Positions 34,417-64,000 of a stretch of DNA of 64,000 nucleotides are shown piece after piece (positions within the stretch are counted from its first letter, which is position 1; every line of letters starts with the position of its first letter). The stretch is from assembly GCF_040436345.1 (NCBI RefSeq), contig NC_133238.1, positions 613,501 to 677,500 of the forward strand, read 5' to 3'. Origin of the DNA: Pagrus major (Eukaryota; Chordata; Actinopteri; Spariformes; Sparidae). Made by a program: the position numbers and the translations under genes. The notes under the pieces were generated by a model. The model was not told the DNA's origin. It made no database searches and saw only the letters and a list, made by a program, of their open reading frames with translations.

Positions 34417-34634
34417 ATGTTGCTGCTGAAGTCACTAGCACCCCTTTGCATCCTGGCTGTTGTTGCCTTTGCTGTACCTGCTCAGGAGAAGCGCATTCAT
34501 CACCGCACTGATCTAAGTGATCACGCTCACAATGATGCTCACGGTTTCCAGTATGACCATGAGGCCTTCCTGGGCAAGGAGGAAGCCAAGACCTTCGACC
34601 AGTTGACTCCAGAGGAGAGCAAAGACAAATTAGC
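34417..34634 (+). CDS. rcn3: rcn3 coding exon 1
   Basis: This exon encodes the signal peptide and the acidic, His-rich N-terminal region including [10 protein letters not shown] and FDQLTPEES, both CREC hallmarks. It ends in phase 2 at donor GTAGGT. Sequence from 34411 to 34416 is untranslated exon after the inferred acceptor. Confidence 0.92.
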
Positions 34635-35671
34635 GTAGGTATTAGTGGCCCGTAGCATACTTTCTTTCTAAACTGTTCAGAAATTGCCGCTTCTAACACT
34701 TCAAGCTTTGTGTTTAGTTGTTTTCATTTAATCATCAGGTTTAATTTTGTACTGCAGACATTATTTCCATTGAGGTGTGTGTAGGTCAGAATTTGAGGTT
34801 GTATTTTCAAAAAGTGAAGGGAGCAGATGTTTTCAGTCAACTTTATATATTTATGCATAACCTTGACCCCATCTCTCCCCACAGAAAGATTGTGGACCGC
34901 ATTGATACTGACAAGGATGGCTACGTCAACCATGCAGAGCTGCACTATTGGATCAAACACCGGCAGAGGAGGTACATCGAGGAGAATGTGAACAAACACT
35001 GGAATGACTACGACATGAACCAAGATGGCAAGATAGGCTGGGAGGAGTACAAAAACACCACCTATGGCTACTATCTGGGTAACTCTGTGAAAGATGTACC
35101 TCAATTCTGATGTGTCTTACTGCAGCTTGGAGGTCTTCATCTAGAAATTGTTTGAGGAAACACAAGTTTCTCCTACAAAGGCACATTTTTAAAGCTATAC
35201 TCATTATTGAACAAAAACAACAACAACATGAACTCTGCTTCACTTAACCAGTGTGCTTAAATGCAAAATGTTCAAAGTAATCAGCCAAGATAGCAGCTAA
35301 TGACAGAGTAAAGCCTTGACAGGTTTCTTTCAGGTGATGATATGGATTTAAAAGCCCTCACTAGAAAACTCAAAGAATTAAGATTCTAGCCAGAAAAGCT
35401 TTTTTTCTGGACAAGTGAACTCTTCTAGGTGGAGCTTTAGTTCAAAGTTACCTTGACTATGCTCCCATCTCCTGGACTACAAGATAATCTAAACACCTTA
35501 AAAACAACCTACAAACGGCTCAAAATAAATTGATAAAGGTTATATTAAACGTTCATCCATGTACATATCTTGATCCAACAGATTTTAAAAAGCTTAAATG
35601 GTAGACAGTGGAAAAAAGAATCCTTTACAGTATATGAAGATGCTGCTCACTTAGGAAGAGAGTAATATAGA

Positions 35672-35843: not shown

Positions 35844-38800
35844 TAAAAAAAGAAAAAAGAGGGATTATACACACACACACACATACATATGTATATATGT
35901 GTGTACATATGTTAATATATATATGTATGTGTATGTGTGTATAATCCCTCTTTATTCAGCAAATGGAACAGTTTAATTTGTCTTGGGTTGAGATTATTGG
36001 GCCACAAATGTCACAGAATGAAATTTCAGACTCACCTGGAAAATAAATTTAACGAAAACATGTCAACTCAAGATCCCTTTTTAGCTGTTCTGTAGATTTT
36101 CAAATAATGCTCTTAATAATGACTACTACATAAAGGAGACCCTTTTTAGGAATAGGCATCTGAATGATTAACCACACAGAAATACCTAAGGAAATGCGGT
36201 CGATAATGAACACTAGAATGCCTGTGTTGCTAAAAAATAAACCTTATTTTCAGATGAGGTATTTGATGACATTGAAGACAAGGCCACCTATAAGTTGATG
36301 CTCATCCGGGACGAAAGGCGCTTCAAGACAGCAGACCGAGATGGTGATGGTATTGCCACACGTGAGGAGTTCACTGCCTTCCTTCATCCTGAGGAGTTTG
36401 ACTACATGAAAGATGTGGTAGTGCAGGTAGGATCTACACTCAAACCACCAGAAACTTTGTTAATAAGTATTTTTAGCCATGCTAGCAATTTGGTGGACAT
36501 TGTACCTGGTAAACATCAGCATATCAGCACAAGTCAAATGGTAGGAAAACATACTGATAGGAAATCAGTGATAACTCATTAAGTATAGGGAACACAAGGA
36601 TGAAATTGGATAAAAGCTCATTTTGTTGAGCTAACTGCTGAGCTGCAGGAAAAAAATCATTCGACCACAACATTGCTTTACAAAATAGACAGGTCAGTGA
36701 CAGCAGCTGTACTGTGAAATTTTGTATTGACATTAAAAATGAGTACAAAGCATCTATTGCCACATCTAAATGAACTGCAAATATGTACTTACACTGCTTG
36801 CTGTGTTACGGTGGTAAAGTTTCATGTTTAATGCAGCAGTAATGCAGCAATCTCTATTAATCTATTCGCATTGATTTCCACATCAAGATTGTTTTATACC
36901 CTGGGGGTTAGGGTAGGCCCTGAACTTCAGCTCTTCTTAAGTGCTAAAATCAAACCAGGCACACAAATATAATTACAGTGGACATTACACATAGAATACT
37001 CTCTCTTTGGGGATTTAAGATACGCAGCCTTGTTTTCTCATAATGCGTATAGCCCGACAGCTTTGATACTGTTTTTGACAACAATGAAATGGTACACTGT
37101 CCCTTTCATCACCCCCTCCTCACAAAGCTCTTAATGTTCAGAAATCTTTAAAGAAAATTACTTGGTCAGTACACTGACTACTTTTTAGCAGAAGAAATGG
37201 ACCTCTATGAGAACTAATTCATTTTCTTTTTTAGGAAACTGTGGAAGACATTGATAAGAATGGGGATGGCAAGATCAATTTAGATGAATACATTGGTAGG
37301 TGACTCCCACTTTATGTCTGATCAACTATCCCCTCCACTTCTAACCTGGAGGCAGTCTGTCCTAAATGTGTGTGTACTGCTTTGGCTTGACAGGTGACAT
37401 GTATACACCAGAGAATGGGGAGAGGGAGCCTGACTGGGTCCAAACAGAGAGGAAACATTTTTCAGAATTCAGAGATACCAACAAGGTAAAAACTGCTCAG
37501 CTATTTTAAACTGAAGTGCTTTATCAGTTTTGGTAACTTTGTCAACACAGCAACATGAGATTGTTTCAGTCCCAGTAGTTAGAGCGGCTTGGACATGGGA
37601 GAGACCATAACTAGTGGCTTGTTGTTACTTCTATTTCTTTTGGAGTTTGACACTTTTTGAAAAATAAAACCAGCCCAGGAATGTCTGCTTCGCCTTTGAC
37701 ACTTCCAAGTTGTTACGCTATGTTAGACGAGGTGAGGACGCAAACGCAGACAACACACAGGAGGCAGGAAATGGGGAAACAAAAAGTGAGCTTTATTTAA
37801 ATAAAGCTGAAAGTACAAAACACAAGAAATCTAGACAAACCAAGAAGTATCAACTAAAACTTAAACAAAGTTCAACCAAAAAGCAAAAGTTCAAATCAAA
37901 CGAGAAACCAAAATCAGAAAACATACCAAACAGGAGACACGAGGAAACACTGGGGAAGAAATGCTGGGAGGCAACACAGGGGGGAGACGAACCAAGACAG
38001 AGAAACATCTAACCACAGGGACCTCATGGAACAAACTGACAAAGACATGAGGGAGAACAAAGGCTATATACACAGACACACTAACGAGGGGATCAGGAAC
38101 AGGAGGAGTGACAAGGGAAGAGGACAGGTGAGGGAACGAGGCCGGAAAAACACTGGGAGAGAAAAAACACACAGGAGGAACTGAAAAGCAAGAAGTGACA
38201 CAGAAGGGTGAAATTTCCAAATAAAACAGAAAACACAAGAACAAGACACTGAATCATGACACAAGTCATGTAAGCAGCTGTTGAGCCAAAGCGCAGGGCT
38301 GTTACTGGAGTATGTGACTTTTGCATCTTTTGCCGGAGCACTGCAATGAACGCTTGTGCTATGAGAGAGAAAAAAACCTGCTAATGACCAAAAACTCAGT
38401 GAATCTCTCTGTCTTAACAGCAGGGGCAAAACCAAATTTTTGCATTATATATTTTTTTTATTTAGTTTTCTTGGCAACATAGCTTATAGGTCACACAAAA
38501 TGTTTATATTTGATATGCTATTAATTAATTTAATTAATTTTTTTAATTTACATTTTGGCTGTTGATATTTTCATATAAGCCACTCCTCTCTGCTGTGTAG
38601 TTGTTGTTGTTTTTTTGGTGGTTTTTAGCTAGCATGCAGCAGTTTTCAGATAAGTAGTTCTAAAAACACACTGTCCACTACCTGCTTGGCACCAATCAGC
38701 AGACAGACAAGTTCATTCAATCATTGGGGGAAACTTCGACCATCAAATAACGTCCACTAAAAGTTGTTTTTTTTGACACAGACATTCTCAGATTGTTCTA

Positions 38801-41800
38801 ATTGTCTAAAAACATTACAGAAAGGATCCCTACAAAGATACTGTATACCTTTTTGTTTAAGAGTAAGATCCTTTTTGTTGAACCAGAAACAGCTGCTATG
38901 TCGCTCTCAATTTTAATTAAGGGTAATTTTATCAGCGTGTAACACAGTTCATACAAAGTTGACAGAAAAAGCACAAAATACACCCAAACTATCTGGGTTC
39001 ATCTTTTCAGTGTAAAACTCAGTCAAATCAGTAGGGACCTAGAGAGAGGTCAGACATTAGGCATGTAAAGGCAGAATATTTTCACATTTCGATATAAGCT
39101 GATGAAGGTTCTCAGTCATCCAGGTCATGGTAATTCTAAGTGCTGTATCCAAGTTGTCTACAATACAGCACTTAGGACATCCCGATATACACTGTCTGGC
39201 CCAAAAAAAAAAAAGTCACCACCTGGATTTAACTAAGGTAAGAGCCTTCCATTGGATAATTACTGCAGTGATTAAGATGTTTCAGCCTGTAACAAGTTAT
39301 TTAACCCTAACTGATGCAGTGAGTAGCTTTTAATTTCTTAAACAACTGTGTCAGAAGATATATCCTTTGTTCGTGGAAAAGATGTTACTCTGTTTCAGAA
39401 GGGTCAAATTATTGGCCTGCAACAAGCAAAGAAAACAACTAAGGAGATTGCTGAAACTACTAAAATTGGGTTAAGAACTGTCCAACACATTATTAAAATC
39501 TGGAAGGATAGTGGTGAACCATCATCATTGAGGAAGTAAATCTTGAATGATCGTGATGGGAGATCACTTGTACATTTTGTGAAATCAAATCATAAAAAAT
39601 TAACAGCAGAACTCACAGCTATGTTTAATAGTGAAAGTAATAGCATTTCCACATGCACACTGCGAGTCCAGAGTCCAGACCTTAACCCCTTTGAGAATCT
39701 TTGGTATGTGCCGGAGAAGACTTTACGTAGCAGCCCTACTCTCCCATCATCAATACAAGATCTTGGCGAAAAATGAATACAAATCTGAATGGAAAAAAAT
39801 GTTGTGACATTGCATAAGCTTATCAAAACGATGCCACGGCGAATACGTGCCATGATCAAAGCTAAAGGCGGTCCAACAAAATATTAGTGTGTGACTTTTT
39901 TTTTATGCCAGGCAATGCGTTCCTGTAATGAAGCTAGAAAGCTTCTTTCATTAGACCCTCCTTACGTTGTGAAATCCATGAAACTTCACGGCCCCACTTC
40001 GGAAGCCAGGCTTTCTGGTCAGTCTCCAAGCCCAAGCTGGGGAATCCCATGATGACATTACCATGACATATTGAGGGTTATTTCCTTGATAAAGCTCATC
40101 GACAGCGACAGAAGACATTATACAACTGTTTTCACAAGCTTAGTCTCACTAACCAAACTGATCTTGATGTGAAATAGTGATAAAATAATAAAAATAATAA
40201 CATTTACACACACACACATGCACACGCACGCACACACAAGAAAACAGAATTTGCAACCACACTTCCTCTGTCACAACTTCAGAAGAAAATTTTACAGCTC
40301 TGAAACACACTTGGATTAATATTTAGAGGTGTACATCTCTTTGTATGTGCGCTGTAGCAAAACTGCTAGTGAAGCTCATTGCTGCGATTTGTGAAGAAGT
40401 AGCTGGTGACAACATGTGATGTCTGTTACACAGGATGGCTACCTGGATGCTGATGAGGTGGCCCACTGGATTTTGCCGGGAGAGGTTGACCATGCTGACA
40501 ATGAAGCCAAACACTTGATCCATGAGACCGACACCGACAAGGTAGACTGCCAGTGCTTAAACCTGCAAAAGATGTGATATATTTAACACATCATAAAAAC
40601 TGAACTACATTTCGTTGTATTCTCACTGACCTCATGGCATACATTAAGTATGTATTTACACTGCTAGTAATTAATTCATTAGGGAACTTGCATTGCAAGT
40701 ATGTGGCAATGTAATTACTGATGACATGGCAAACATTAATGCTTGAAAAAAGATGAATCTTGTACTTTTAATTTTTTTACATGAAAGGTTTGTTGCAGAG
40801 TTCTAGATTGCAAATATAGATATAGATGAATGGAGACTAGCTTCCTGGAGGGTAATATAGAAGTATATAAACTTTAAGGATAAGGCTAGTTATATGTTAT
40901 ATTTTTCTTTTTGTCAACAAATCCTTTGCAGGACCAAATCAACAATGAGCAGATCCTACTAAAAAGTATTTTCTGTTAATCTTGATATATCTCTGTCTGT
41001 GCCATTGTTCTCCAAAGCACACCAGTGAGCCACACTGGGTTTTCACACTTAAAGGAATAGTTCACTCTAGAACGAAATTCAGTCATTATCGACTCACCCT
41101 CATGCTGATGAGAAATCCGGTGTAGTTTTTTATTCCTCAAAGTGCAGCTGGAGACCCGCGGGGGTACCGTCACGCAGCAAAAATCCATATAACGGGCGTC
41201 AATGGTGCCCGAGACGAAAAGGTCCATAAAACTACACAAAAACTTTGTAATATTCCTCCATGCTGCTCGCCCGCTGCAATCCAAGTGTCCTGAAATGGCG
41301 ACATCCAGAGTTTACTCGAAACGACGTGATTTAGTACGTTTTTATAGCCTAAACAGTCACTATACTATATTTGCCTGGAGGCATGCGAGTCTCCCTCACA
41401 CCCACTCGCACTACGGAAGCCGTAGTCCAAAGTCAAAGTCCTTGGACATTTTTCTTTTTTCTTTCAAAGTTTCAAATCACTAGTGCAGGCAGATCCCTCT
41501 GGTGTTTGTGTGTCGCGCGGTCGCTCACAGCTGGATGTAAATACCGGTGTGTATCTATCGCGAGTTCTCGTTGATCTTGTCTGGCGCGGCTTCCGTAGTG
41601 CAAGCAGGTGTGAGGGAGACTCACATGCGCACGCGAGCGTGCCTCCAGGCAAATATAGTATAGTGACTGTTTAGGCTATAAAAATGTGCTAAATGACGTT
41701 GTTTCGAGTAAATTATGGATGTCGCCACTTCAGGACACTTGGATTGCAGTGGACGAGCAGTATGGAGGAATATTACAAAGTTTATGTGTAGTTTTATGGA

Positions 41801-43214
41801 CCTTTTCGTCTCGGGCACCATTGACGCCCATAATATGGATTTTTGCTGCAGGGCGGTACCCTGGCGGGTCTCCAGCTGCACTTTGAGGAATAAAAAACTA
41901 CACCGGATTTCTCATCAGCATGAGGGTGAGTCGATAATGACTGAATTTCGTTCTAGAGTGAACTATTCCTTTAAGTAAATTTTGAGTCAATCCCATATAC
42001 ACCATCCTTCTGCTAGAAAGAAACTCCAGTGACTAGCTGGTTTAGGAAATTAACAAGCAATTTTTAATGAAGTGTTATATTTGTAAATATTTAGGCCTAC
42101 TACATACTACTACTTCATGGGATTTGTTAACAACAAGAAAAATAGAGAATATCACTAGCCTTATACTATTAAAGTATACGAAGAGTTATCCTTTTAAAAG
42201 CCAGCAGTAATGTAACACTTAATTGCCAATCTATCAGGTACACCTAGCTATCTTTCACACCATGTAAAATACTGTAACAGCATCTCTGTAGCTAAAGCTT
42301 ATATTTAGTGTTAACAGTAAATCAATGTAGTTTGTAATGGAAAGTCAGTGTAGATGTACTTAACCAGAAAAACAGAGACATCTTTATTATTCTCAAAATT
42401 CCTTTGTCATACAAGCAAAGTCTCATAATCAGACTAATGTAAGAAATAAAATGCATTAAAATGTTTTTATTTGATTTATATCTCTTTCAGCTCATTGGCT
42501 AATCTTCCAAGAGTCCATATTAAAAACACATTTAAGCATACCATAATTCATAAATATAAGGCATGATTGTTGACATACACATATTATATCATACAGTCTA
42601 CATGCACACATTTAATTTCCATACATTTTCAAGAATACTCTAATGTGAATATATACACATATTCATTTACATTGTTCACATTAATAGCATACCAATACTC
42701 CACAACATATGAACAACACAATAATATAATGATAACTAAAAAAAATAAAGTAAAATATGTAAGTATTAAAAATAACTACAACTTAATAAAAACTATGAAT
42801 GGAAACTGAACTGAAACTCGTTGGCAATGTACTGAATGTAATAATAAAAGTAGGACAGGTACAGGTATTTAGCACATTAGGTCAAAAGTGTACTGATCCA
42901 TGACTTTTCTGTGCTGTCAAGTATATCAATTAACATAGTGTAAATAATTGCAGGTCATTGTGGGTTAATTATTAACAAGCTTCTCTCTGTGTCTTGTTTT
43001 CTGTTACTCCTGTTGTTCTCCACCCTATGTTTTCCCTCCTCCTCTTTCTTTCAATCAAAATCCAATAAAAACCAATGTTGGATGGAATCTGCTGATCAAA
43101 CAACAGGATGAGAAAATAACCAGGAAGGAGATTCTGGCCAACTGGAACATGTTTGTGGGCAGCCAAGCGACCAATTACGGGGAAGATTTAACAAAAAGGC
43201 ATGATGAACTTTGA
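34417..43214 (+). CDS. rcn3: reticulocalbin, CREC-family ER calcium-binding protein (RCN3-like)
   Basis: Seven coding exons join to a 317-residue protein: 34417-34634, 34885-35078, 36254-36426, 37235-37295, 37394-37485, 40434-40541, 43107-43214. All junctions are GT-AG and phases agree. Residues 1-22 form a signal peptide ([20 protein letters not shown]). Six EF-hand loops lie at 80-91, 116-127, 165-176, 202-213, 243-254 and 279-290. Asn130-Thr-Thr is a sequon conserved in the family. The protein ends HDEL, for retrieval to the ER lumen, where the family binds calcium at low affinity and assists secretory proteins. [29 protein letters not shown] and HETDTDKD favour RCN3 over RCN1 or calumenin as I recall them, but RCN1 is not excluded. 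An upstream in-frame ATG at 34288 is rejected because it lies before the acceptor at 34410. Confidence 0.93.
34885..35078 (+). CDS. rcn3: rcn3 coding exon 2
   Basis: After CCCCACAG it encodes EF hands 1 and 2 (loops [12 protein letters not shown] and [12 protein letters not shown]) and the NTT sequon. The donor GTAACT leaves phase 1. Confidence 0.92.
35435..35640 (+). mobile_element. LINE reverse transcriptase C-terminal fragment in intron 2
   Basis: The plus strand reads [10 protein letters not shown], then [19 protein letters not shown] and FKKLKW, typical of the domain after the reverse transcriptase in fish LINEs. It is short and interrupted by a stop. The 5' part of the LINE is missing. 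Confidence 0.6.
35674..35945. repeat. (TG)n/(TA)n/(CA)n microsatellite block with inverted halves
   Basis: A TG run (35675-35710) passes into mixed TATG repeats. An inverted pair, AGAGGGATTATACACAC at 35858-35874 and GTGTGTATAATCCCTCT near 35935-35951, closes the block. Open frames here on both strands are repeat artefacts. Confidence 0.9.
36254..36426 (+). CDS. rcn3: rcn3 coding exon 3
   Basis: After TTTTCAG it encodes DERRF and EF hand 3 ([12 protein letters not shown]) and the family signature [10 protein letters not shown]. It ends in phase 0 at donor GTAGGA. Confidence 0.93.
37235..37295 (+). CDS. rcn3: rcn3 coding exon 4
   Basis: This short 61 nt exon after TTTTTTAG encodes EF hand 4 ([12 protein letters not shown]) and ends in phase 1 at GTAGGT. 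It is separated from exon 5 by only 98 bp. Confidence 0.93.
37394..37485 (+). CDS. rcn3: rcn3 coding exon 5
   Basis: After TGACAG it encodes [20 protein letters not shown] and the first half of EF hand 5, ending DTNK in phase 0 at GTAAAA. Confidence 0.93.
37711..38261 (-). mobile_element. solo LTR in rcn3 intron 5
   Basis: The 551 bp segment starts TGTTACGC and ends ATCATGACA, i.e. TG...CA. CAAGT flanks both sides (37706-37710 and 38262-38266), a perfect 5 bp target duplication. A TTTATTTAAATAAAG stretch lies inside. No internal retroviral-type genes remain, so recombination between two LTRs probably left this one. The minus orientation is inferred from the poly(A) signal and is tentative. 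Confidence 0.8.
38600..39090. other. intron 5 sequence without recognised content
   Basis: AT-rich. Nothing identified in this part. Confidence 0.4.
39093..39186. mobile_element. Penelope-like terminal fragment
   Basis: GCTGATGAAGGTTCTCAGTC and GTTGTCTACAATACAGCACT are typical of the ends of Penelope-like elements in fish. The second phrase also occurs as GTTGCCTACGATACAGCACT at 56555-56574 in this window. Only about 90 bp is left before the Tc1 insertion. Confidence 0.5.
39189..39917 (+). mobile_element. Tc1/mariner relic in rcn3 intron 5
   Basis: The left end has CACTGTCTGGCCCAAAAAAA and GTCACCACC. The right end, reversed, has CATTGCCTGGCATAAAAAAA and GTCACAC, which match imperfectly. The transposase is plus strand and reduced: the DNA-binding part at 39348-39539 ([18 protein letters not shown]) and the catalytic end [11 protein letters not shown] near 39680. 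Several hundred bases of the catalytic domain are missing. Confidence 0.85.
40204..40238. repeat. (CA)n microsatellite
   Basis: An interrupted CA run within intron 5. Confidence 0.8.
40434..40541 (+). CDS. rcn3: rcn3 coding exon 6
   Basis: After TTACACAG it completes EF hand 5 (DGYLDADE), encodes [20 protein letters not shown], and ends with the first four residues of the sixth loop (DTDK) in phase 0 at GTAGAC. The exon can join to any of three downstream candidates (40932, 43107, 60482). Confidence 0.93.
40932..40979 (+). CDS. possible short alternative or relic terminal exon of rcn3
   Basis: After a pyrimidine-rich tract and TCCTTTGCAG the frame reads [15 protein letters not shown] and then stop. 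Joined to exon 6 it would continue the sixth EF-hand loop, but one residue short of the canonical 12 compared with [10 protein letters not shown] of exon 7. Similarity to exon 7 ends after about ten residues. If used, the protein would be 297 residues and lack any ER-retrieval signal. A degenerate duplicate of the last exon is the more cautious reading. Confidence 0.35.
   Translation, partial: DQINNEQILLKSIFC
41047..41976. mobile_element. palindromic MITE with TTAA target sites, in rcn3 intron 6
   Basis: The ends are TTAA then AGGAATAGTTCACTCTAG on the left and the exact reverse on the right. The arms run about 41047-41424 and 41585-41976 and are highly similar; the spacer is about 160 bp. 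Duplicated TTAA is the hallmark of Kolobok and piggyBac elements. No transposase is present. Transcribed as part of the intron, the arms would form a long hairpin. Open frames on both strands here are mirror images of each other. Confidence 0.85.
41980..43106. other. rest of rcn3 intron 6
   Basis: AT-rich, no repeats recognised with confidence. It ends with AACAACAG, the acceptor of exon 7. Confidence 0.5.
43107..43214 (+). CDS. rcn3: rcn3 coding exon 7 (HDEL terminal exon)
   Basis: After CAACAG it encodes the rest of EF hand 6 and the conserved CREC tail [18 protein letters not shown], then KRHDEL and stop: 35 codons plus stop. The tail is very close to that of RCN1 and RCN3 of other vertebrates as I recall them. 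The 3' UTR follows to the poly(A) signal at 43764. Confidence 0.95.
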
Positions 43215-43763: not shown

Positions 43764-43769
43764 AATAAA
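43764..43769 (+). promoter_or_regulatory. rcn3: poly(A) signal of rcn3 (AATAAA)
   Basis: AATAAA lies about 550 bp after the HDEL stop codon, followed by a T/GT-rich stretch. This is the first canonical signal downstream in the expected range. Confidence 0.65.
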
Positions 43770-46320: not shown

Positions 46321-46324
46321 TTAC

Positions 46325-50372: not shown

Positions 50373-50733
50373 CTTAAATATAAATAAAGAACAGACTACT
50401 TTCTGCTGGATTCAAAATTGATATCAATATACAATTATGTACCACCCCATTTTAATATCTGACCACGCCCCACTGTCAATGAGGTTAAAGTTAGGTGAAC
50501 AAACATTTAAAAATGTTCAATGGCGATTTGATGCAATGCTGCTAAAAGATATGGAATTTAAAAATTACCTAGACAAACAGATCTCCCACTTCATTTCTGA
50601 AAATGTAAATGTTGAGGTCAATGATTCAGTCCTATGGGAATCACTGAAGGCAGCTACAAGATATTTGTAGCTAAGAAAAAAGATAATAATCGGCTTAGAG
50701 AAATAAATCGGGACTTAGAAAACCCTTATAAAG

Positions 50734-51064
50734 AAGAATCTTTATTTTGTCAGTTGTCTTTTACATGCGACATGCAAACACACCCGAAATTAGTCCTCTG
50801 CATTTAACCCATCACTAGCTACACATTGTATGTACACACACTGCAAACTAGGAGCAGTGGGCTGCCATGACAGGCGCCCGGGGAGCACATGGGGGTTTTG
50901 GTGCCTTGCTCAAGGGCACCTCGGCAGTAACCCAGGAAGTGAACTGGCACCTCTTCAGCTGCCATATTATTACCACTTCCATATTATGGTCTGTAGCTGG
51001 ACTTGAACCGGCCACCCTCCAGTCCCCAAGCCAAGTCTCTACCGACTGAGCCACTGCCGCCCCT
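50734..51064 (-). mobile_element. tRNA-derived SINE
   Basis: On the minus strand, the head carries an A box TGGCTCAGTCGGTAGAG (plus positions 51037-51053) and a B box GGTTCAAGTCC (50999-51009), about 28 bp apart as in a tRNA gene promoter. The body has the common fish segment GCCCTTGAGCAAGGCACC. The tail reads GGGTTAAATGCAGAGGACTA. It splits the L1-like linker reading. It is not a functional tRNA, since the cloverleaf is not intact and the rest of the sequence follows without a gene end. Confidence 0.82.
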
Positions 51065-52660
51065 AAAGCAAATCCCTCTGATGCAACTCTGGAAGCAATC
51101 ACCAAGTTGAAATTTGAGCATAACACCATATTAACAAAACGTCTTGGCTCCATGCTCTGCAAAACACAACAGAATTTCTTTGAATTTGGGGACAAGCCAC
51201 ATAGCCTTTTAGCTAGACAACTAAGGCAAACACAAGCATCCTGCGCCATCCATAAAATCAGAGACAAGAATGGCAAATTAATAACGTCCCTAGGTGAGAT
51301 TAACAAATGCTATGCTAAATTCTACCACAACTTACATAAATCTAAATGTTCTGTCACTCCAGAAAGTCTCAATGAATTTCTAGCAAAATTGTAGCTTCCT
51401 ACGCTGGATGCTGAAGCAGTGCAGGCTCTAGAGGCCGCGATAACCCTAGAAGAGATCACATCTGCTACTACGCAATTCCCAACTAACAGAGCCCCTGGGC
51501 CAGATGGGTTTAAAATTAAATTCAATAAATCATACTTTGCATAGCTGTCATACTGAAAAAAACAGGGACCCTCTAAATATGTCTTCCTACCGCCCCATAT
51601 CCCTGCTCCAAATTGAAATGAAGATCCTGAGTAAAGTGTGTCCAACAGGCTGTGTAAACACATTCACAAACTAATACACCCTGACCAATCAGGCATTGTA
51701 CCTGGTCACCATATTTACTCTAACCTACGCCGTCTTTTCAACATAATGTATCATGACCACAAAGAGGAGTGTGCTATCATCGCTTTGGATGCAGAAAAGG
51801 CATTTGATCATATAGAATGGAAATGTATGCTATCAACCTTAAACCAATTTGGCTTTGTCAAAAAATGTATAAATTGGATTATTATCATCTATACTCAACC
51901 CCAAGCCTCCATTATTACCAATGGAGAGACATCGCACCCATTTGACCAACAGAGAGGTGTCCGGCAAGGCTGCTTGTGCTCCCCACATGTATTTAATTTA
52001 TGCATCGAAGTGCTTGCCAGCCAAATAAGAGCAAACCCAGATTACAAACCCATTCAAATACATGAAACAAACCACCACCTGTCGCTTTTCGAGGATGACA
52101 TGACATTGTATTTATCGTGCCCCGAGGTGACCCTTCCCCCTCTATTATGCTTAACTGAAAAATTCGGCAGCCTCTCAGGATACACTATTAATTGGGACAA
52201 AAGTTAATTGCTTCTATTGTCGGATAAAGTAGATCTAGAGTTTCTACACACAATGCCCTTCAAGATTGTATACAATCAAATCAAGAGCTTAGGTGTTATT
52301 GCTACGCGAAAATATGGAGATCTCTTAAATTCCAACTGGGAAAGTCAGATCCAACAATTGCGCCATAACATTGAATTCTGGGATACATTACCAATCTCCC
52401 TAGTTGGTCACATTAATGCCCTAAAAATGGCTACTCTCCCTAGATTCCTATATGTTCCAATGCTTACCGGTCTATATTCCCCTATACTGTACTTCAGGAA
52501 ACTGGACTCCATCATCTCCTCATTTATCTGGAACAACAAGATAGCGAGAATATCAAAGAAGCATCTATGCAAGGACAAATTAAGGGTTTGGAGAGAGAAA
52601 AGAAAAAGTTTTGCTATTCCAGACAGCTCCCTCTGCATGAGGCATTGAAACGTAGCCGGG

Positions 52661-53482
52661 GGCATTGCACGTACCAAATGCCATAACTATGTGATCCATG
52701 ACTGCAGGAATCTGTCTCGGGCTGTTGAATTAACTATAGATTTTTGTCCTGCATTTTGTTAGCGTGTGTCCACGGACACAAAGAGCACAGACAGATCTCG
52801 AAAGGGAGAGCCACAGTTCGTGCTCTCTAAACTCTGCTTAAACTGTCTAAACTTGGCTGTGCTGATAAAATACAAACCAAGAATCTGTTACTACACTGCC
52901 TATAGAAGTAAAAGTAAGCCTACTCATTATAAGTTTCGTCAGAGTTTTTTTAGCCTTGTTAGAAGGATGCCCTAACATGCTATGAGGAACACTTTAAGTG
53001 TAGTTCTTAGCTAAAATAGAGAAAGCGTGTGTACCAGAAGTCCCCGCCATTTCGTTTATACGATGAAAACGGATGCTAAAAAACTCTGATGACACTTTTA
53101 ATGAGTAGGTTTACTTTTACTTTTATGGTACTTTTAAGATGGCCCTTGCATAAAAGTAAGTTGTCTATTCAGTAGAAAGAAACAAATATTTTTGAAACTG
53201 AAGCTACATAACCAGATAAAACAGAGAAAGGGGGCTGTGTTTTTCCCCAGCTGGTATCAAGCAACATATTACAGCAGGCCAACAGGCCACTACACTATGT
53301 TTCTGAAAAAGCTGCAGGTAATGTCATATATATTTTCCTCATTTAGGAGGTATTTCACCCTCTCATCCCACCTGTTAGTGATCAGGATGATACTTTCTAT
53401 GACCATCCCGCCTGATTCACGGACCGAGAATCATGCACACAGAGGGGTGGGCAGCAGCGCTTCTCCTTCTCCCTGATAGGCT
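52661..53482. other. non-coding stretch with an inverted repeat
   Basis: No gene. AAGTAAAAGTAAGCCTACTC (52907-52926, continuing to 52951) is repeated in reverse at about 53078-53125 with a spacer of roughly 125 bp. This is a small fold-back structure, perhaps a MITE. Confidence 0.55.
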
Positions 53483-54048
53483 CAGGGGCGGTTCCTCGTA
53501 TGGGCAGCCGCCCAGGGCAGCATTCATGGAGGGGCGGCATGAGCACCCGCACAAAAAGGTGCGTCTAATGCTGCTGAGAAAGACTCATATACAGAGGTTG
53601 TGGAAGAAGGGGAAGGGGGAGGGGGGCGGCGGAAAGTTTCACCTACTGAACCTCAGCTCTCCCTACTGGTGCGGGGGAGCGGTGAAGCAATTTGTGTGTC
53701 ACAGCAGCCAAAGGATAGTTCAATATAACAATAAGCAATAGTAATAGTAAAAAATAAAAAATATAATAAAAAGGTAAGAAATAGAATTGTGTAAACATAA
53801 TATGTACAAATATAAACAGTGTAACTGTAGACAGTGTGGGCAGTGTATTGTTATTAATAAATAATAAATATGAGTATGAAAATTGCCCAGTTAGTGCAAA
53901 CCAAAATGAGAAATGAGTTATGTATACATTCATATTAGATTCATCTAGTGCACAACTAAGGCGAAAGTAGTAGGTGAAAGTCAATCACATCACGAATTGC
54001 TGAAGGTGAGGTTCGCCCAGGGTGTCGTGCAAGCTAGGAGCGCCACTG
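53483..54048. mobile_element. hAT-like non-autonomous element
   Basis: The left end is CAGGGGCGGTTCCTCG and the right end, reversed, CAGTGGCGCTCCTAGC, typical hAT-style ends. The left part has GGGCAGCCGCCCAGGGCAGC-type sequence, and the right part CGCCCAGGGTGTCG. No transposase is seen, and the eight flanking bases on the two sides do not match. Confidence 0.55.
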
Positions 54049-55435
54049 GGACAGATGATTGTGAAACGGCGGGGCAGAGGGTCCAGCAGCCGAGGATCAC
54101 ATCCCTGTCCCTCAGCGAAGACGAGTGCCACTGTTTAATATGTGTCCTGGCACACCTGGCTCTTAAAGGGAATGGGAGACTACACTCAGGTTGGTTTGAT
54201 GTACGCCCTAAACACACTCGCGCACTGTGCTTTAGACCATGCACTATAGACCGTCTAAATAGGGCCCATAGTCTGTTTCGCTCTGCTTTCCTCAACCACA
54301 TAGGGACCTTCAAGCTTAGCTTGCAGTGCTGAACCAGACATGGGAAGAAATGCCAGCACAGAGTCTCCAGTCTGAAAGCTTTGTTCATCATCATTCTTAT
54401 CAAAATGAGCATTTTAGATTGGGAGATTGTCACAAGCCCAATTCACACTGCCCTTGGAGTGCGGGAATCATGCCCGATTCTCCGCATCGTCATCTGTGTG
54501 AAAGGTACAGATGCAGAGAGGGGGGACAGTTTCGCTGTGGCTCTGATGCGTCTCTGGAGGTAGTATCAGAGCCGCAGCAGAGGTGAGTCAGCGTCTGTGT
54601 AGATGGATAAGCTGGAGGCGGGGAGCGGGGGCATGTCGATCTGATGGTGTTCACAGTCTGACAGCTAAACAGATCCTTCACTCATCAAATAAAAGAGAAA
54701 TCACCTGCAAAGCAACATTACAGGACCAAACAACAGTACTGTGGTAACTGGTAGTGTCTTTGGCAACTTACATTAGGAAAAAAATACTGCAGTTGTACAT
54801 GGAAAAGCCTCTGTCATCCTGTCTGTCCTACTGACTCCGTCACATTTCTGCATGAAAAACAGTGTCTGTCCCCGACCAAAAACTTAACTAACTCACCATG
54901 GGTTGTCTCCTTCCACTATTGTGTTGTTGTAGTTACTGAACTGAAAAAAATCACTGCGACGATCAGCCCTCCTGACCAAGACTTCAGTGAACTCAGACAG
55001 CGTAATTTAGAGTGACAAACTTTGTCACTTTCCAGGATGCATGGTGGGTCAGGATCTTGTCGTGTATCGACTTCTTAATCTTTGTTTGTCCAAAAAAGTT
55101 TTTCAGAGTTTCAAAAAGTCACCAATAAAAAGGAAATAATCTCCAGGAGTCCTCCAAAGCTGAGTGCAGTAATGTTTAATTGTCAACAATTAAAACATGA
55201 GGTCATACAGACAAAAGTTCATCCGATACAACCCAACTTCTCAATACAAAACATATTCCTTTTATTCACTAAAACGGGGGCTGGGCACCATGGTTTGTCT
55301 AATCCAGGTTCGTCCTTTTGTTTTTGTATCAAATTTTGCTGACTTGGGAATTTTCCTGCATGAGGCAAAAACACGTGCCAAAACCATGTCTGCATTTGTC
55401 GACATTCGGCATTTCCTTTGATCTTCCTTGCTCGA
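54049..55435. other. gene-free stretch
   Basis: The opposed open frames 53997-54332 (+) and 53990-54433 (-) overlap the hAT end and have no recognised match, though the sequence looks repetitive. Frames at 54326, 55082 and 55197 are unsupported. Confidence 0.4.
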
Positions 55436-55439
55436 CAAA

Positions 55440-56590
55440 AATCTACATCAGGGTGCCCCTTGAGGGGAGTTTGCAGGCTTTTAAACTCTGTGTGGGTGTG
55501 TCCTTAGAGGGTCATTTAGGACACGTGTGAGCTCTTGAGTTTCAGAGTCATTAGGGCCACTTGTGGGTCGTTGACCCAACCAGCCTTCATGTGGGTTGCT
55601 AGGGCTAGGGGAGCCCAGGTGTAAATGGTTGTTAAGCTGACTGGGGAGGGAACTCAGTACTGCATTGTAGGTGGGTGATAAGTAATGTCTTAGGCCACCT
55701 CCTCTTTTCAAAGACGGCCGTTCCAGTTTGACATAGATGGATTATTTTACTCCTCTTTCAAACCATCTGTCTTCTCTGGCCAAGATGTTTACATTGTTAT
55801 CCTCAAAGGAATGATTTGTCTTCTTCAGATGTAAGTGGACAGCAGAGTCTTGACCTGAGGAGTTGGCCCTCCTGTGTTGTGCCATTCATTTATGGAAAGG
55901 TTGTTTTGTCTCCCCAATGTAAATCCGTGCATTCCTGGCTGCATTGAACAACATAAAGTACATTACTCTCTTTATGCCTGGGTGTTTTGTTCTTAGGATG
56001 GACATGTTTCTACCTCAGTGTGTTGGTAGGTTTGAAGTGAACTGGAATATGATGTTTATTGAAGATCCTCCTGAGTTTCTCAGATGTTCCTGCGACATAG
56101 GGAATGATGATGTTACGTTTTCTCGTCTCCTCCTCTCTGTCTGCTCTTGATCTTTTAGAGGTTTTGACAAAGGTCCAGTTTGGGTAACCACAGGTTTTAA
56201 GTGCTCCCCTGATGTTCTTCTGTTCTTTCTCCTTCCCCTCTTTGTTTGTGGGCACGGTGTCAGCCCGATGGTTAAGGGTTCTGATGACCTCCAGCTTGTG
56301 CTCCAGTGGGTGATGAGAGTTGAACAGCAAGTATTAATCTGTGTGTGTAGGTTTTCTGTACACATCAATGTTGAAGTTTCTGCTTCTTCTGTTGAAGGCC
56401 GGTTGGGTCAACAACCCACACGTATCCTTGACGACCCTGTAGGGACATGCCCATACAGATTTTAAAAGCCTGCAAACTCCCCTCCAGTTAGTTAGAACTG
56501 AAGAAGCCTCTTGGATGAGAGGTGAAACATCTTCAAGAAACTGAAAAATGTCCAGTTGCCTACGATACAGCACTGAGAAGTAGTAGTAGT
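55440..56590 (-). mobile_element. Penelope-like element, truncated
   Basis: Minus-strand peptides include FNIDVYRKPTHTD and HHPLEHKLEVIRTLNHRAD (end of reverse transcriptase), FVKTSKRS, GTSEKLRRIFNKHHIPVHFK, then VLYVVQCSQECTDLHW, MAQHRRA, DSAVHLHLK, REDRWFERGVKESIYVK and GGGLRHYLSPTYNAVLS. The last group is the GIY-YIG endonuclease of Penelope elements. The frame is broken across the YIG motif and again elsewhere. About 24 bp inverted repeats flank it (55462-55485 and 56461-56484). The reverse transcriptase core and N terminus are missing. Confidence 0.88.
56497..56576 (+). ncRNA. candidate hammerhead-like motif of a Penelope terminal repeat
   Basis: GATGAGAGGTGAAAC (56514-56528) lies between complementary GAAG and CTTC-type arms. 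This is the arrangement reported for minimal hammerhead ribozymes in Penelope terminal repeats. The first core bases do not exactly match the standard CUGAUGA. Self-cleavage is not shown by the sequence. Confidence 0.4.
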
Positions 56591-56599
56591 ATTAGTAAC

Positions 56600-56986
56600 T
56601 AGGAACCAGTATGCTTAACCTACTGTGGCAGAGGCATGAGCATAGATCATATGCAGAGTAGAATGGGTCAGTAGTGGGGCATGTTATTTAGCATGGATAA
56701 ATAGGGAATAGGGAACGCAACAGACATTTCTCTGTGTAGCTTTAAGTTTCACTTTGGTTCACTCTTGTCCCCCAGTTGAAAACACAGCAACGACCTGCCT
56801 CATCCTGGTTGTTTACTGTTATTTTTATTGTAAACTGTTATTTAGGACAAACAGTCACTAGTATGATCAGTATGACAGTAGCATAACAACATTGTAGCTT
56901 CACCTTTTGGCAAACTGATCAGCGGGGTTTCCCAACACGTCACACACACCGACCATGGAGTGACTCCCACACCACAAGTGAATTTC
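56600..56986. other. gene-free stretch
   Basis: Nothing recognised. Confidence 0.5.
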
Positions 56987-57414
56987 CTGACTTGTTCAAA
57001 TCAAAAATGCACTTTTTCAGATCAATGCTGAGCTTCTTAGACTTTCCCATTGTGGTGTCAGTGGCTGAGTCTAATGGGTGTATCAAACAAGCCATATTAA
57101 AATAGGCCCAGAAAAGTCATCAGCCTTTATCAATCATAATCACTCAGAAGAAGTTAAGAAGCCATGCTACAAAGCAAATTTGATTGACACAACTTTGTAT
57201 TATTACCAAAATTGATCATTCAAGTTGCTTTATGTATATTTTTGACCCAGCAGATTTGGTCACATTTTCAGAAGACCTAGGATAAATTCATTATTGAACC
57301 AAACTTCATGAATGTTTTTTTGTGACAAAGTGGAGCATGTTCCACTCATTCCATCACAGAATAATGAGAGTTGTAGAAATTACTGGAACTCAAGACGGCC
57401 AAGATATATACATG

Positions 57415-57420
57415 GTCTTC
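57415..57420. repeat. target-site duplication, left (GTCTTC)
   Basis: The same six bases follow the right arm at 59948-59953. With one mismatch the duplication could be extended to eight. Confidence 0.65.
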
Positions 57421-59947
57421 TATGAAGGTAGATTTGTGTCTTTATTATTCAATCAAAAAAAGGTTGCTTCAATCAAAAAATATATTTTCAATCAAAAAAA
57501 CCCGTTTCAATCAAAGAAAAAAAGTGTTTGAATGCAAAAATATATTTGAGACTCAAAAAAATGCATTTGAACACTATTTTTTTTTGCTTGAAAATGTTTT
57601 TTTTGATAGAAGTGAAGGTTTTTTTGTTTGAAGCAACTTTTTTGATTGAAGTATTGTTGTTTTTTGTTTGGGCCATATTATGGGTAGGACATTTGTGTCT
57701 TTATAATTCAATCAAAAAATAAGTTGCTTCAAACAAACAAAAAATATTTTCAATAAAAAAATCACTTCAATCAAAAAATAAACCTTTTCAATCATAGAAA
57801 AAATGTTTTTGAATGCAAAAAAATATTTGAGACTCAAAAAATTGCACTTGAACACTTTTTTTTTGATTGAAAATGTTTTCTTTGATTGAAGTAATCTTTT
57901 TTGTGTTTGGAACATGTTATGGGTAGGACATTTGTGTCTTAATTATTCAATCCCAAAAAAGTTGCTTCAATCAAAAAAAATATATTTTCAATCAAAAAAT
58001 ATATATTTTCAATCAAAGAAAAAACTGTTTAAATGCAAAAAAAAAAAAATCATTTGAAGTGTTTTTTTTTTTAATTGAACTTTCTTTTTTTGAATGAAGT
58101 GAAAAAAGTTTTGAAGTCGTTTTTTTTAAAAATCATTTTGACACAAACGTACCGCAGTGGGCGGTGCTTCCCCATTGGTCAGACATGTTTGAGTGACAAG
58201 TGTCTACACCAACGACGTCTTTCTGACAAGCAAGTCATGGTCGCCAGCAGCCAGGAAGCAGTGGCGGAGTTGTTGTATATGTCTATGGCATGAATCTATA
58301 ATAGATCCATGGTCTATGGTGGTTAGTAGATAAAACCATAGACATAGATACAGAGACGCCTCATTGAGCGGGTTGTTCCGCTGCTGCGATACGTCGACGT
58401 CGCCGACATATTGGAGGAGGCAGCTCTGCCCCGTCAACTAATACAAGTGAATGGAGTGAACTTTACAAAGCTCCTTCTGCAAAGTGCTATAAGTTAATGT
58501 CTCTCATTTACACATTCACACACGTACGAATATATTCAGGAAACAGACAGGAACCAGAAACAACGTCTGTAACGTCCTCGGATGATTATAAACGTTAACT
58601 ACTCCTGACATGTTCAGTTTACAGGTGGGCACCAAACCACCGGATGTATTTTTATAATGTTTTTATGAGTGTTTACAGCTGCCAACGTGTGTAACGCTGC
58701 TACTGTGATGATACATGACGGTAACACAAGCAATTTCCCGTCAGGGCTTAATGAAGTATTTCTGATTCTGATTAATATATGATGCAGTCAGTTGTCCATA
58801 TTTAAGTTGACAGTATGGTAGACAGACATCACATTTACGTGTCAGGATCTGGTTATTATAGACACAGAGTCAATATTTAACCGTCATGTATCATCACAGT
58901 AGCAGCGTTACACACGTTGGCAGCTGTAAACACTCATAAAAACATTATAAAAATACATCCGGTGGTTTGGTGCCCACCTGTTTACTGAACATATGAGGAG
59001 TAGTTAACGTTTATAATCATCCGAGGACGTTACAGACGTTGTTTCTGGTTCCTGTCTGTTTCCTGAATATATTCGTACGTGTGTGAATGCGTAAATGAGA
59101 GATATTAACTTATAGCACTTTGTAGAAGGAGCTTTGTAAAGTTCACTCCATTCACTTGTATTAGTTCACGGGGCAGAGCTGCCTCCTCCAATATGTCGGC
59201 GACGTCGACGTATCGCAGCAGCGGAACAACCCGCTCAATGAGGCGTCTCTGTATCTGTGTCTGTGGTTTTATCTACTAACCACCATAGACCATGGATCTA
59301 TTATAGATTCATGCCATAGACATATATACAACAACTCCACCACTGCTTCCTGGCTGCTGGCGACCATGACTTGCTTGTCAGAAAGACGTCGTTGGTGTAG
59401 ACACTTGTCACTCAAACATGTCTGACCAATGGGGAAGCACCCGCCTACTGCGGTACGTTTGTGTCAAAATGATTTAAAAAAAAAACGACTTCAAAACTTT
59501 TTTCACTTCATTCAAAAAAAGAAAGTTCAATTAAAAAAAAAACACTTCAAATGATTTTTTTTTTTTTGCATTTAAACAGTTTTTTCTTTGATTGAAAATA
59601 TATATTTTTTGATTGAAAATATATTTTGTTTGTTTGAAGCAACTTATTTTTTGATTGAATTATAAAGACACAAATGTCCTACCCATAATATGGCCCAAAC
59701 AAAAAACAACAATACTTCAATCAAAAAAGTTGCTTCAAACAAAAAAACCTTCACTTCTATCAAAAAAAAACATTTTCAAGCAAAAAAAAATAGTGTTCAA
59801 ATGCATTTTTTTGAGTCTCAAATATATTTTTGCATTCAAACACTTTTTTTCTTTGATTGAAACGGGTTTTTTTGATTGAAAATATATTTTTTGATTGAAG
59901 CAACCTTTTTTTTGATTGAATAATAAAGACACAAATCTACCTTCATA
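57421..59947. mobile_element. 2.5 kb fold-back (palindromic) element
   Basis: The left arm 57421-58722 (1302 bp) and right arm 58880-59947 (1068 bp) are reverse complements with few differences. They are separated by a 157 bp spacer. The outer ends are TATGAAGGTAGATTTGTGTC and its reverse. The outer half of each arm is A/T-rich with repeated units starting GTAG...TTTGTGTCTTTA (at about 57427, 57684 and 57923 on the left). The inner half is GC-richer with CGTCGACGTCGCCGACATA. No transposase is encoded. The type is unknown; fold-back/MITE-like with a 6-8 bp target duplication. Confidence 0.88.
58723..58879. other. spacer of the palindrome, containing a retroposon tail
   Basis: The spacer begins AACACAAGCAATTTCCCGTC and contains AAGTATTTCTGATTCTGATT, the same tail as the Rex1-like LINE end at 49156-49204 (there on the opposite strand). 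This suggests a retroposon fragment inserted at or near the hairpin tip. Confidence 0.6.
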
Positions 59948-59989
59948 GTCTTCACATGTGTATGTTAACTTTCAATTTGAAGATATATG

Positions 59990-60470
59990 CCTAGCTAATG
60001 GAGACTGGGGTACACATCCCCATTTAGGCTCACCAAATCTGCTTTTCTGACATTTTTTATATATCCTGCCCTAATTTAAATAAGAACATTTTAGTTAAAA
60101 TGAAAGTCTAAAATCTCATTTGAAGTGTTAAGAATACATTCATACCAATTATGATGTGTTTGTTTAATTTTTAATGTCAAAAGTCTGGCATGGGCTTAAA
60201 ATGGGTACCTAATTGACATTTTAAGCCCATGAATGTTCATAATAAGCCCGCCTCATTATTTGTTGAGAGACTTTAGAACCCTACAGAGAAAATTGTCTAA
60301 AAAAGTCTAAAGGGGTAGGAAGTGATTCAATAAATGAATATAAGATATGTACATTTTATACATAATTCTTAAGCCATAACCATGATTTGTGCATTGCAAA
60401 TAGTTTTGCAAATATGTGAGTGCTAAAGTTACCTATCTACTCATATCTACCTATCTACCTGCCCTCTGTT
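59990..60470. other. non-coding stretch upstream of the distal exon
   Basis: No EF-hand-like exon or other gene seen. The last 40 bp are pyrimidine-rich. Confidence 0.5.
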
Positions 60471-60481
60471 TTGCATGTCAG

Positions 60482-60589
60482 GATGGCCATCTAATACTGT
60501 CTGAGCTGCTCGACAAGATTGACCACATCAAGACCAGCACCATCACTGACTATGGAGGCCTGAGGATGGACAGCCATGAAGAACTGTGA
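60482..60589 (+). CDS. rcn3: candidate alternative terminal exon of the reticulocalbin gene (HEEL)
   Basis: After TGCCCTCTGTTTTGCATGTCAG the frame opens DGHLILSELLDKIDHIKTST, then ITDYGGLRMDSHEEL and stop: 35 codons plus stop, exactly the length of exon 7. Exon 6 ends DTDK in phase 0, so joining gives DTDKDGHLILSE, a textbook 12-residue EF-hand loop with Gly at position 6. The end aligns with exon 7: TDYGG..SHEEL against TNYGE..KRHDEL. HEEL fits the ER-retrieval pattern. The spliced protein would again be 317 residues. The [10 protein letters not shown] block is replaced by KIDHIKTS-type sequence. The alternative reading is a relic of a tandem duplicate gene. Confidence 0.7.
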   Translation, partial: DGHLILSELLDKIDHIKTSTITDYGGLRMDSHEEL

Positions 60590-60833: not shown

Positions 60834-60839
60834 AATAAA
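60834..60839 (+). promoter_or_regulatory. poly(A) signal for the distal exon (AATAAA)
   Basis: AATAAA lies about 245 bp after the HEEL stop. It would close a short 3' UTR if the distal exon is used. Confidence 0.5.
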
Positions 60840-60844: not shown

Positions 60845-63800
60845 GCAGCCATTGGTGTCCTTATATCTGATGTAACAACATAAAACTTACTTGATTTACT
60901 ATTTTACTATCAAAACAATTTAATATGAATGGGTTGAATGAGTCAAAGGTGGAATGACTCACAAATACATTAACACAAACACATTTTACAAATCTAACAG
61001 GCTCGCTAGTAGCTAGCTAGTATGACAAACAGGGATTGCACCAATATACTAATATGTTACTCTCTGTGGAAGTCTGATTTAAAAGATCAAAATAAATAAT
61101 TAAAAACAACTACCAAGTGGTTTTCTTTAAAGAAAAATGGATGGTTTTATTATACTTACTCAGTATACTACTAATACTATACTGTATAGTATACTATAAT
61201 ACATACAAGCGATGATTATATACCTATACACTCTGTAGTCTCACTCAATGTCCCACCCACAGCACTAACTAATTGGTTAAACTTCAGGAGTAATAGCCAA
61301 TCAACACTGAAGGCTATGTCACAGACAAGCAGGTGGCTCTGATCAGTGAAGAGCATCACTGAATTTACAATAAACATCACAATCTCATGATCTACTTCTG
61401 TAATAGAAAGTATGTCTGGTTCCCAGTTACACCACTGAAGAGTCATAACGTATGGGATTCCACCATATGAATGCGTGTCACACAGTGGTCAGAGTAAAAC
61501 ACAGTGCATCTGTCTTGTCTTTTCACTGCAGCTCTGCATTGACGTTAAGGGAATTAATAATATTAAAGTAAGAAAGATGGTAAAACTGTATTTCACTATG
61601 TGATGGTTAAAAAACTTAAGTTAGACTCTAAAGTTCGGGTTGAGTTTGCTCAGAGTATTAACTGCCACTGACTTATCAGTTTATCAAAACATACGTCAAC
61701 CCCTTTACTAGTTAAATTAAGTCGAGTCTTTAACGAGGCACCCACCCACTATGAGACGCCACTTCAAAACTTAAACATTTCATATTGTAAGGCAGTTCAA
61801 AATAGAGAAATTGTTCCCTGCCCCTCCTCCTACACGATGTGTTACTTGTTACTAGATGTAGCATGTTGATTGGTTCATGAATGTGACACATAGGGGCGTG
61901 GCGAGATTACTCAGGAAATAGTCAGTTGAGGTTGAACTGCGCTCGTGAACGGCTTGTTGCATGGACAGCTCTGGCTTGCTGTTCTGTGCCTGAGCTGGAG
62001 CCCTCAACCCAGCATAACTGTGTACAGTTTGTGGCTGTATGATGTAACTCTCCTACCCAAGTTCATTAAAGTCCATAAACTGAAGGTTCCTTGTTGTGTG
62101 AAGGATTTCCACTCACGTACACCCAGACAAGCTAGCCTAGCTCACTCGAAAAGGTGAAAGCACAACAATATCATGTTACGGCCCATTTACCATAACTGTA
62201 GAAAATACTCCCACCTGCCCAGGCTTACATGGCTCAACCTAACAGGCCCCACCTGAGGTGATAAACTCTCAATCAGCCTCTTCTCTGTCTGCTGGAGCAT
62301 GCTGCATGGATGTGGAGCTGCCAGTTTTTCAGTCGATTGTCAACCTTGTATGCATTATTTTGAGTGAGTTTATGTTTTTTTCCTTAGGTATTGAAGTAAC
62401 TTATTTTCTGAGAGACTATTTACTCTTGTATGTTAATTTATAATTTCTCTTCTTTATTTTTTAGTAATCAAATCATCTGTGTAATGCAATCGACTGAATG
62501 AAGAAATAAATGGTTGAAAGGCACTCCTCTGGTCCTCATATTTTGACTGATATGCCAATGTATAGGCTATATGTGTAATCCAGCTGCCAACAACAGTCAA
62601 GTTTCTACAATAACAGTGCAGCATTGTGTTTGAAGAGACAATACTAGCAAAGTGAAAAAGTACTGTTAGCCAGTATTTAGCCATTGTTTGATTTGCATAC
62701 AGTTGGGCTGCCATTCATAATTTTAACCCTGGCGTCACATTCATTATCATCAAACTCTCTGTACAATGCCCAACACATATTTGAAACCATTGTTCCTAGC
62801 CACAATTCAATCACAATACTTAAATCTTTGCAGGCAATACAAGCTAGCGAGAGTGGCAACTTTAGCAACCGAACCAAACATGCTAATCAATTTGAAATTA
62901 TTCAACAAGATGGGAAGAAAGTAATGTTAATCTGTAAACCTAATAAAACTACCAGATGTATGGTAATGTAACATTAACATTATATCAGTGTGCCTACAGG
63001 TGCTACTGTGTAATGTGACTTGGGGTGTGTTTCCAGCATGCAGCCTATTCAAAATACATTACCATTTGAACGTTAATATGATCCTTAACTTAACCCTTTT
63101 AGTTGAGAAGGTCATCCATTTTGGGGAGCTCTGATAGAAAAAATAGGAAAATGCTTAAATAAATTTCCAGGACAACACAAGATTGTCCAGGACATTTTGC
63201 TTTTTCTCTCATTTTCCATGACTGGAAAATTGGTCAACCTTTTCCAGGTTTTCCAGGACGGGTGAGAACCCTGACAGACCATGAAACACTGCATCATTTG
63301 CCAAGATAAGCTCCACAGAAATAATTTATGGAATAATCGGTCTCTTTTTTTATTCTGAAATTTTATTTTAACCCCCTGACCCCCACCCACACACATCAGT
63401 ACTAGCCATATCATTTTTGGGGTTTTTTGTTACAGACCTGAGCTTGAAATAATAATAAGAAATAATAATGATTCTGTCTTTTACGGACAGTCAGTGAAGC
63501 CACAATCAGCCTTTTAAAGAGAAAATGACATCTCAGAAGGAATTGGATATTTCACATAAATGACAAAACATCTATGATGGAAAAAGCAATTATCAGTTAC
63601 ATATATGGGAACAAGAAAAGTATGCAAGCAAACAACAGAGTCCTTCAAAATAGATGAAAAGTTTTCGACACGCTGGGGGGAGTATGTTACAAAAAATATT
63701 TCACCCTTTGCACTCCACAGAACTACAGTTAGGATGTACATAAACTTTTTGAGATAATGTTATGCAGTCCTCAGATCCTACATCGTCTCACACTTGCATC

Positions 63801-64000
63801 ACTGGACGAGCCTCTTTGGCACGGAGGTCAACCCCGGAGGCAGCAAAGCCAGTTCCACCCTGTCAAAACACATGGCAGATCATCAGCATCATTTTAACTT
63901 TCTTTGACAAGTTTACCTACATTAGTGTGCAGCATACAGCTAGCCTGGCATTGCCTGACTAGATTCTAAATGTGTGTTAGTTTGGAACCCCTCAGTTCAT
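60845..64000. other. gene-free stretch to the window end
   Basis: No coding sequence supported. The frames at 61945-62157, 62684-62971 and 63112-63414 are unrecognised. A repeat with TTTCCAGGTTTTCCAGGACG lies at about 63160-63300, a type common in fish introns. Confidence 0.5.

Follow-up and report, generated by a model that had tools for sequence, protein, structure and literature searches.

The window, a stretch of 64,000 nucleotides from the sea bream Pagrus major, contains on its forward strand the gene rcn3, which encodes a reticulocalbin, a calcium-binding protein of the ER from the CREC family. Coding exons 1 (34417..34634, encoding the signal peptide), 2 (34885..35078), 3 (36254..36426), 4 (37235..37295) and 5 (37394..37485) were placed by exon joining and by identity to a deposited protein. 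Exon 6 (40434..40541), of 108 nt, ends on DTDK in phase 0, has the donor AAG|gtagac without a G at +5 and is the shared branch point for two last exons. The standard one (hereafter exon 7A; 43107..43214, forward strand), placed by exon joining, has 108 nt and encodes a 35-residue tail, and AATAAA occurs 3' of it at 43764..43769 and again at 44948. The alternative one (exon 7B; 60482..60589, forward strand) sits 17 kb beyond exon 7A, and the span from exon 6 to exon 7B is 19.9 kb. On the reverse strand, 63788..63859 holds the last coding part of a convergent neighbour, the translation of which ends in GGTGFAASGVDLRAKEARPVMQV followed by a stop; judging by the C terminus of NOSIP, we take this gene to be nosip, and it likely bounds the rcn3 unit on the 3' side. 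Rcn3 and Nosip adjoin in several vertebrates according to the available part of one report (PMC3554528), a neighbourhood that supports the name rcn3.

Exon 7B is preceded by an AG at 60480–60481 and comprises 36 codons including a TGA stop (60587–60589), i.e. 108 nt, encoding the tail DGHLILSELLDKIDHIKTSTITDYGGLRMDSHEEL. Its acceptor, ctctgttttgcatgtcag, has a pyrimidine fraction of 0.74 at positions −22 to −4, and the nearest upstream AG lies at −55; the pyrimidine fraction is 0.42 for the acceptor of exon 7A and 0.47–0.79 for the five other acceptors of rcn3 (0.47 for exon 3). The 3' splice site of exon 7B is in phase with the exon 6 donor, and the exon has its own stop and a candidate poly(A) signal, AATAAA at 60834..60839, which lies 245 nt past the stop (with further occurrences at 61091 and 61369). 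Joined to either last exon, exons 1–6 yield a protein of 317 residues, and the 7B form is identical at 317/317 residues to the deposited ‘reticulocalbin-3 isoform X2 [Pagrus major]’ (P0002). This form has the signal peptide (recognized by eye), EF-hand repeats and C-terminal retrieval signal of a CREC (RCN3) protein, and its precomputed Pfam accessions are presumably those of EF-hands.

Since exon 6 ends on DTDK in phase 0, the loop of EF-hand 6 can be completed by either last exon. Via exon 7B, this loop reads DTDKDGHLILSE (DTDK|DGHLILSE) and is canonical, with Gly at position 6; via exon 7A of Pagrus major, position 6 is Glu. Further on, exon 7B replaces an 18-residue segment of the 7A tail by one that contains STITDYG, and the protein terminates in HEEL. 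The first-pass annotation had described 60482–60589 as a second last exon of the reticulocalbin gene with an acceptor and a poly(A) signal of its own, equal to exon 7A in length, phase and position of the EF-hand junction, similar to it in the shape of the C terminus, and exchanging the 18-residue segment while keeping an ER-retrieval type of end. All of this is borne out, by the acceptor, phase, AATAAA and identical deposited isoform for the exon itself, by exon joining for its match to exon 7A, and by an ungapped alignment and a shared [DE]EL end for the C terminus, HEEL being a signal of the KDEL-receptor type.

We asked how readily such a pattern arises by chance. Among 3528 frames on both strands of the window that are preceded by AG and reach a stop after 12–60 codons, only exons 7A and 7B, together with starts nested within them, end in [DE]EL. 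A more specific pattern, a phase-0 half EF-hand combined with a [KRH][DE]EL end, was composed after both exons had been seen; it matches the window twice, at 43107 and 60482, and is absent from all 150 simulated 64-kb windows (first-order Markov).

The same tail is present in other fishes. At least 36 distinct proteins, each assigned to a fish, carry a 7B-type tail on an rcn3 exon 1–6 body. They stem from three tail-restricted protein searches (E ≤ 10), of which the best 12 of 15, 22 of 24 and 36 of 1186 candidates, respectively, were considered. The query of the first was the last 40 residues of the 7B form, with Pagrus major isoform X2 as the top match; that of the second was the Toxotes tail, which added Denticeps; and three tails together, used in the third, added Danio, Labeo, Carassius, Tachysurus, Clarias, Gadus and Boreogadus. 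A search by tail favours species that keep the tail, and, the database being clustered at 90% identity, the number 36 is a minimum and little can be read into absences. Among the matches listed, none outside teleosts had a 7B tail, and the same held for gar, bowfin, arowana and tetrapods, in this 90%-clustered database and with shared 5-residue words needed for a match. The carriers range from Otomorpha (Danio, catfishes and Denticeps) to Euteleostei (cods, Centroberyx and percomorphs). A taxonomy look-up assigned Danio, Clarias and Denticeps to Otomorpha and Gadus, Centroberyx and Pagrus to Euteleosteomorpha, all within Clupeocephala; the remaining tail-carrying species beyond these six are placed by their usual classification. 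Conversely, the zebrafish and Pacific cod proteins, when searched against the window by tblastn, match 60479–60586 and not exon 7A (E 5.5e-6 and 4.2e-6). Both results show, at the protein level, that the frame is kept in other teleosts.

The deposited 7B isoforms are, by name, mostly automatic models: the word ‘isoform’ occurs in 30 of the 36 database names, the exceptions being P0012, P0013, P0016, P0017, P0033 and P0037. Two proteins, from Labeo (P0031) and Carassius (P0032), are labelled reticulocalbin-1-like and calumenin-like and are apparently misnamed. The model of Etheostoma spectabile (P0013) has 168 residues beyond HDEL and an insert in the body, both most likely annotation errors.

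The conserved residues of the tail cluster in three places: the EF loop, the STITDYG motif and the C-terminal retrieval signal. Residues 283, 284, 286, 290, 301, 305–307, 316 and 317, as well as residue 279 at the end of exon 6, are identical in 36/36 proteins. These include EF-loop positions 1 (residue 279, from exon 6), 5, 6, 8 and 12 (residues 283, 284, 286 and 290), whereas position 3 is D in 23/36 and N in 13/36. Within STITDYG, residues 301 and 305–307 are identical in every protein and residues 302, 303 and 304 each in 35/36. The C-terminal signal is HDEL in 32 proteins (including the Etheostoma model that reads past it), HEEL in 2 and RDEL in 2; the final EL is found in all 36, and 35 tails end in H/R-D/E-E-L, with the Etheostoma model continuing past HDEL. 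The claim that exon 7B ends in HEEL holds in this fish, but HEEL is a local variant of what is mostly HDEL. Tail length is 35 residues in 30 proteins, 34 in 4 and 33 in 1, with the Etheostoma model as the exception. Between Otomorpha (6 proteins) and Euteleostei (30), mean identity is 0.61 in the tail, 0.75–0.83 in body segments within residues 21–282 and 0.33 in the signal peptide, which indicates that the tail changes more quickly than the body, yet less quickly than the signal peptide. Its middle (residues 291–313) has a mean identity of 0.51 between the two groups, with a lowest pair of 0.30. For Danio and Pagrus, the values are 0.57 for the tail versus 0.82 for the body.

These figures bear directly on the proposition that exon 7B arose from exon 7 by duplication and is now decaying, its frame still open by chance and its inclusion by gene-prediction software due to in-frame splicing. 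Such a history would suit the automatic look of most model names (30/36 with ‘isoform’), the Etheostoma model that continues beyond HDEL, and a tail that changes more quickly than the body, particularly in its middle (0.61 and 0.51 vs 0.75–0.83). It fits poorly with a frame kept in 36 fish proteins and a tail of 33–35 residues in 35 of them. In Otomorpha as in Euteleostei, EF-loop positions 5, 6, 8 and 12 are invariant, STITDYG varies little and the end is of the KDEL type, and one would not expect a neutral exon to have kept an open frame and a similar sequence since these lineages split. We consider decay very improbable. Similar tails from zebrafish to cod to sea bream make exon 7B most likely a real, long-kept alternative rather than a decaying copy, and the earlier argument against simple decay, which had drawn on the intact frame and the canonical loop, is reinforced by the loop positions and the STITDYG motif retained across fishes. 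As far as sequence comparison can tell, conservation makes the case for exon 7B stronger than first claimed.

A position 17 kb beyond exon 7A could also point to a different gene, with exon 7B terminating an independent CREC gene or a tandem rcn gene between rcn3 and nosip, and two database names deviate (reticulocalbin-1-like in Labeo and calumenin-like in Carassius). This proposal was rejected, and we regard it as the least credible of those considered. The tail stands on an rcn3-like exon 1–6 body in 36 proteins, and the Pagrus protein corresponds exactly to this gene; moreover, tblastn with four rcn3 proteins recovers exons 1–6 and the matching last exon, and its best E within 43215–60481 is 1.9, so that no upstream exons of another gene were found in that interval. 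A pattern scan for whole EF-hand loops returned three in the window, all inside rcn3 exons. A frame ending in REEL at 48560 is unrelated.

Exon 7B is thus almost certainly a true alternative last exon of rcn3, and its resemblance to exon 7A speaks to its origin. The two tails align without gaps over 35 residues, of which 10 are identical (10/35), a score reached by 0/20000 permutations; with the Toxotes 7B tail, 12/35 residues are identical to exon 7A. When the first residue and the last four are left out, the score is reached in 64/20000 permutations for the Pagrus tail and in 2/20000 for the Toxotes tail. When the whole EF-hand half is omitted as well, these numbers become 121/20000 and 86/20000, and the similarity there is modest. 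General EF-hand likeness may be part of the similarity between the exons. An origin of exon 7B as a copy of exon 6 is not supported: that alignment scores −7, which 1223/20000 permutations reach (11466/20000 beyond the loop). The simplest origin is likely a duplication of exon 7, which by parsimony would have taken place at the latest in the common ancestor of Otomorpha and Euteleostei, and the pattern of retained residues suggests selection on exon 7B since then.

A third last exon was sought at 40932–40979, where a good acceptor (tttgcag) is followed, in the phase of exon 6, by 15 residues and a stop. The candidate was not accepted, its similarity to exon 7A ranking 417 of 3528; the open stretch may reflect the decay of a third last exon, or simply chance.

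Alternative splicing is an established source of diversity among CREC proteins, above all in calumenin (CALU1/CALU2 and CALU15), with variants also of Cab45 and ERC-55, as described in the available parts of two articles (PMC12516920, PMC4498735). The calumenin variants in those texts differ from the 7B form: they have another exon 2 or lack the signal peptide, whereas exon 7B changes the last exon, and the same portions describe no CREC variant with an alternative last exon that retains ER retrieval (PMC12516920, PMC4498735). Compared with standard RCN3, the fish 7B form draws its last 35 residues from another exon, has an EF-hand 6 loop with Gly at position 6 and carries the STITDYG-bearing segment instead of the 18-residue one. 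The teleost entries named ‘reticulocalbin-3 isoform X1/X2/X3’ represent the same form, that of Pagrus major being identical, but offer names only; we found nothing with them on the tail itself, how well it is conserved or how it arose. The first-pass annotation knew of no described alternative end of this kind. In the databases, however, the form is listed (NCBI, UniRef and nr), under mostly automatic isoform names; in the literature, no description of a second rcn3 last exon was found in the open-licence texts, in the portions available, most subscription papers being outside this scope. The splicing diversity of CREC proteins and the database entries of the 7B form are accordingly known already, and the conserved fish 7B tail is apparently undescribed in the accessible portions of the open-licence literature.

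We assign a probability of about 0.93 to the reading that exon 7B serves rcn3 as a functional alternative last exon and arose long ago when the last exon was duplicated. Use of the acceptor of exon 7A and of the poly(A) site of that exon (AATAAA at 43764) would give a transcript for the standard tail; one that passes both and has exon 6 spliced to exon 7B would encode a protein of equal length with a different set of last 35 residues. The choice would be set by the polymerase and the splicing machinery, either committing to exon 7A or continuing for 17 kb. The pyrimidine-poor acceptor of exon 7A (0.42) and the exon 6 donor without a G at +5 would suit a regulated choice, and exon 7B may well be used and chosen in such a manner. 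As exon 7B completes EF-hand 6 with a textbook loop, a switch of tails would alter EF-hand 6 and the C-terminal surface while ER retrieval is kept.

HDEL and RDEL bind the KDEL receptor and mediate retrieval, and HDEL or HEEL is found on human FKBP proteins, as stated in the available part of one study (PMC8248988). Ending in HDEL, RDEL or HEEL like these KDEL-receptor ligands, a likeness known for the fish tails from their sequences, the 7B protein would be expected to return to the ER. As the exchange affects EF-hand 6 and the residues leading up to the retrieval signal, it is likely to act on calcium response and partners: with exon 7B, EF-hand 6 may respond differently to calcium, and the surface offered to ER partners may differ.

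An AlphaFold model of the 7B protein, built from the 36-row alignment, has a mean pLDDT of 50.6, too poor to judge the tail. With the bare 7B tail as the query, a Pfam scan matched no family and a search of solved structures gave no match. The full 7B protein matched 212 solved structures, the best 60 of 212 being mostly calmodulin, with top stretches ending at residue 215 or 291–298.

A real exon 7B could also act mainly as a regulatory device, through its different 3' UTR, with the change in protein being incidental. This idea is compatible with a functional alternative last exon and draws on the separate 3' flanks, each with its own AATAAA, and on the ER-retrieval type of end of both proteins; we nevertheless deem it unlikely as the principal role, for residue conservation beyond the retrieval signal, in STITDYG and the EF loop, points to selection at the protein level.

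Reporters under the rcn3 promoter are expressed in the notochord and fin mesenchyme of zebrafish, according to the available parts of three reports (PMC7012607, PMC9170247, PMC8566576). We tentatively suggest, at somewhat less than even odds, a teleost tail switch that predates the Otomorpha–Euteleostei split, in which the duplicated last exons would give two client or calcium settings at one ER address, perhaps divided between tissues (notochord and fin mesenchyme vs the rest). If teleosts make both tails, knockouts, antibodies and tagged constructs based on a single tail would capture only part of the rcn3 output. To our knowledge, the role of the CREC C terminus is little understood; two tails of like length and ER address, with a different EF-hand 6 and a different stretch ahead of the retrieval signal, would allow it to be tested directly in zebrafish.

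The 17-kb gap between the two last exons looks largely repeat-derived. By eye, a broken LINE-like reverse transcriptase with other repeats inserted occupies 48600–52700, between exons 7A and 7B, and a remnant of a Tc1/mariner-like transposase lies at 27000–28080, upstream of rcn3. A large palindrome at 57455–59912, probably a fold-back mobile element, has arms of ~1.1–1.3 kb that are 92–100% complementary, in six pieces and two registers ~240 nt apart, around a 157-nt centre, and stops ~0.6 kb upstream of exon 7B. A second palindrome, in the intron between exons 6 and 7A (41047–41976), has 340-nt arms that are 94% complementary and separated by 250 nt.
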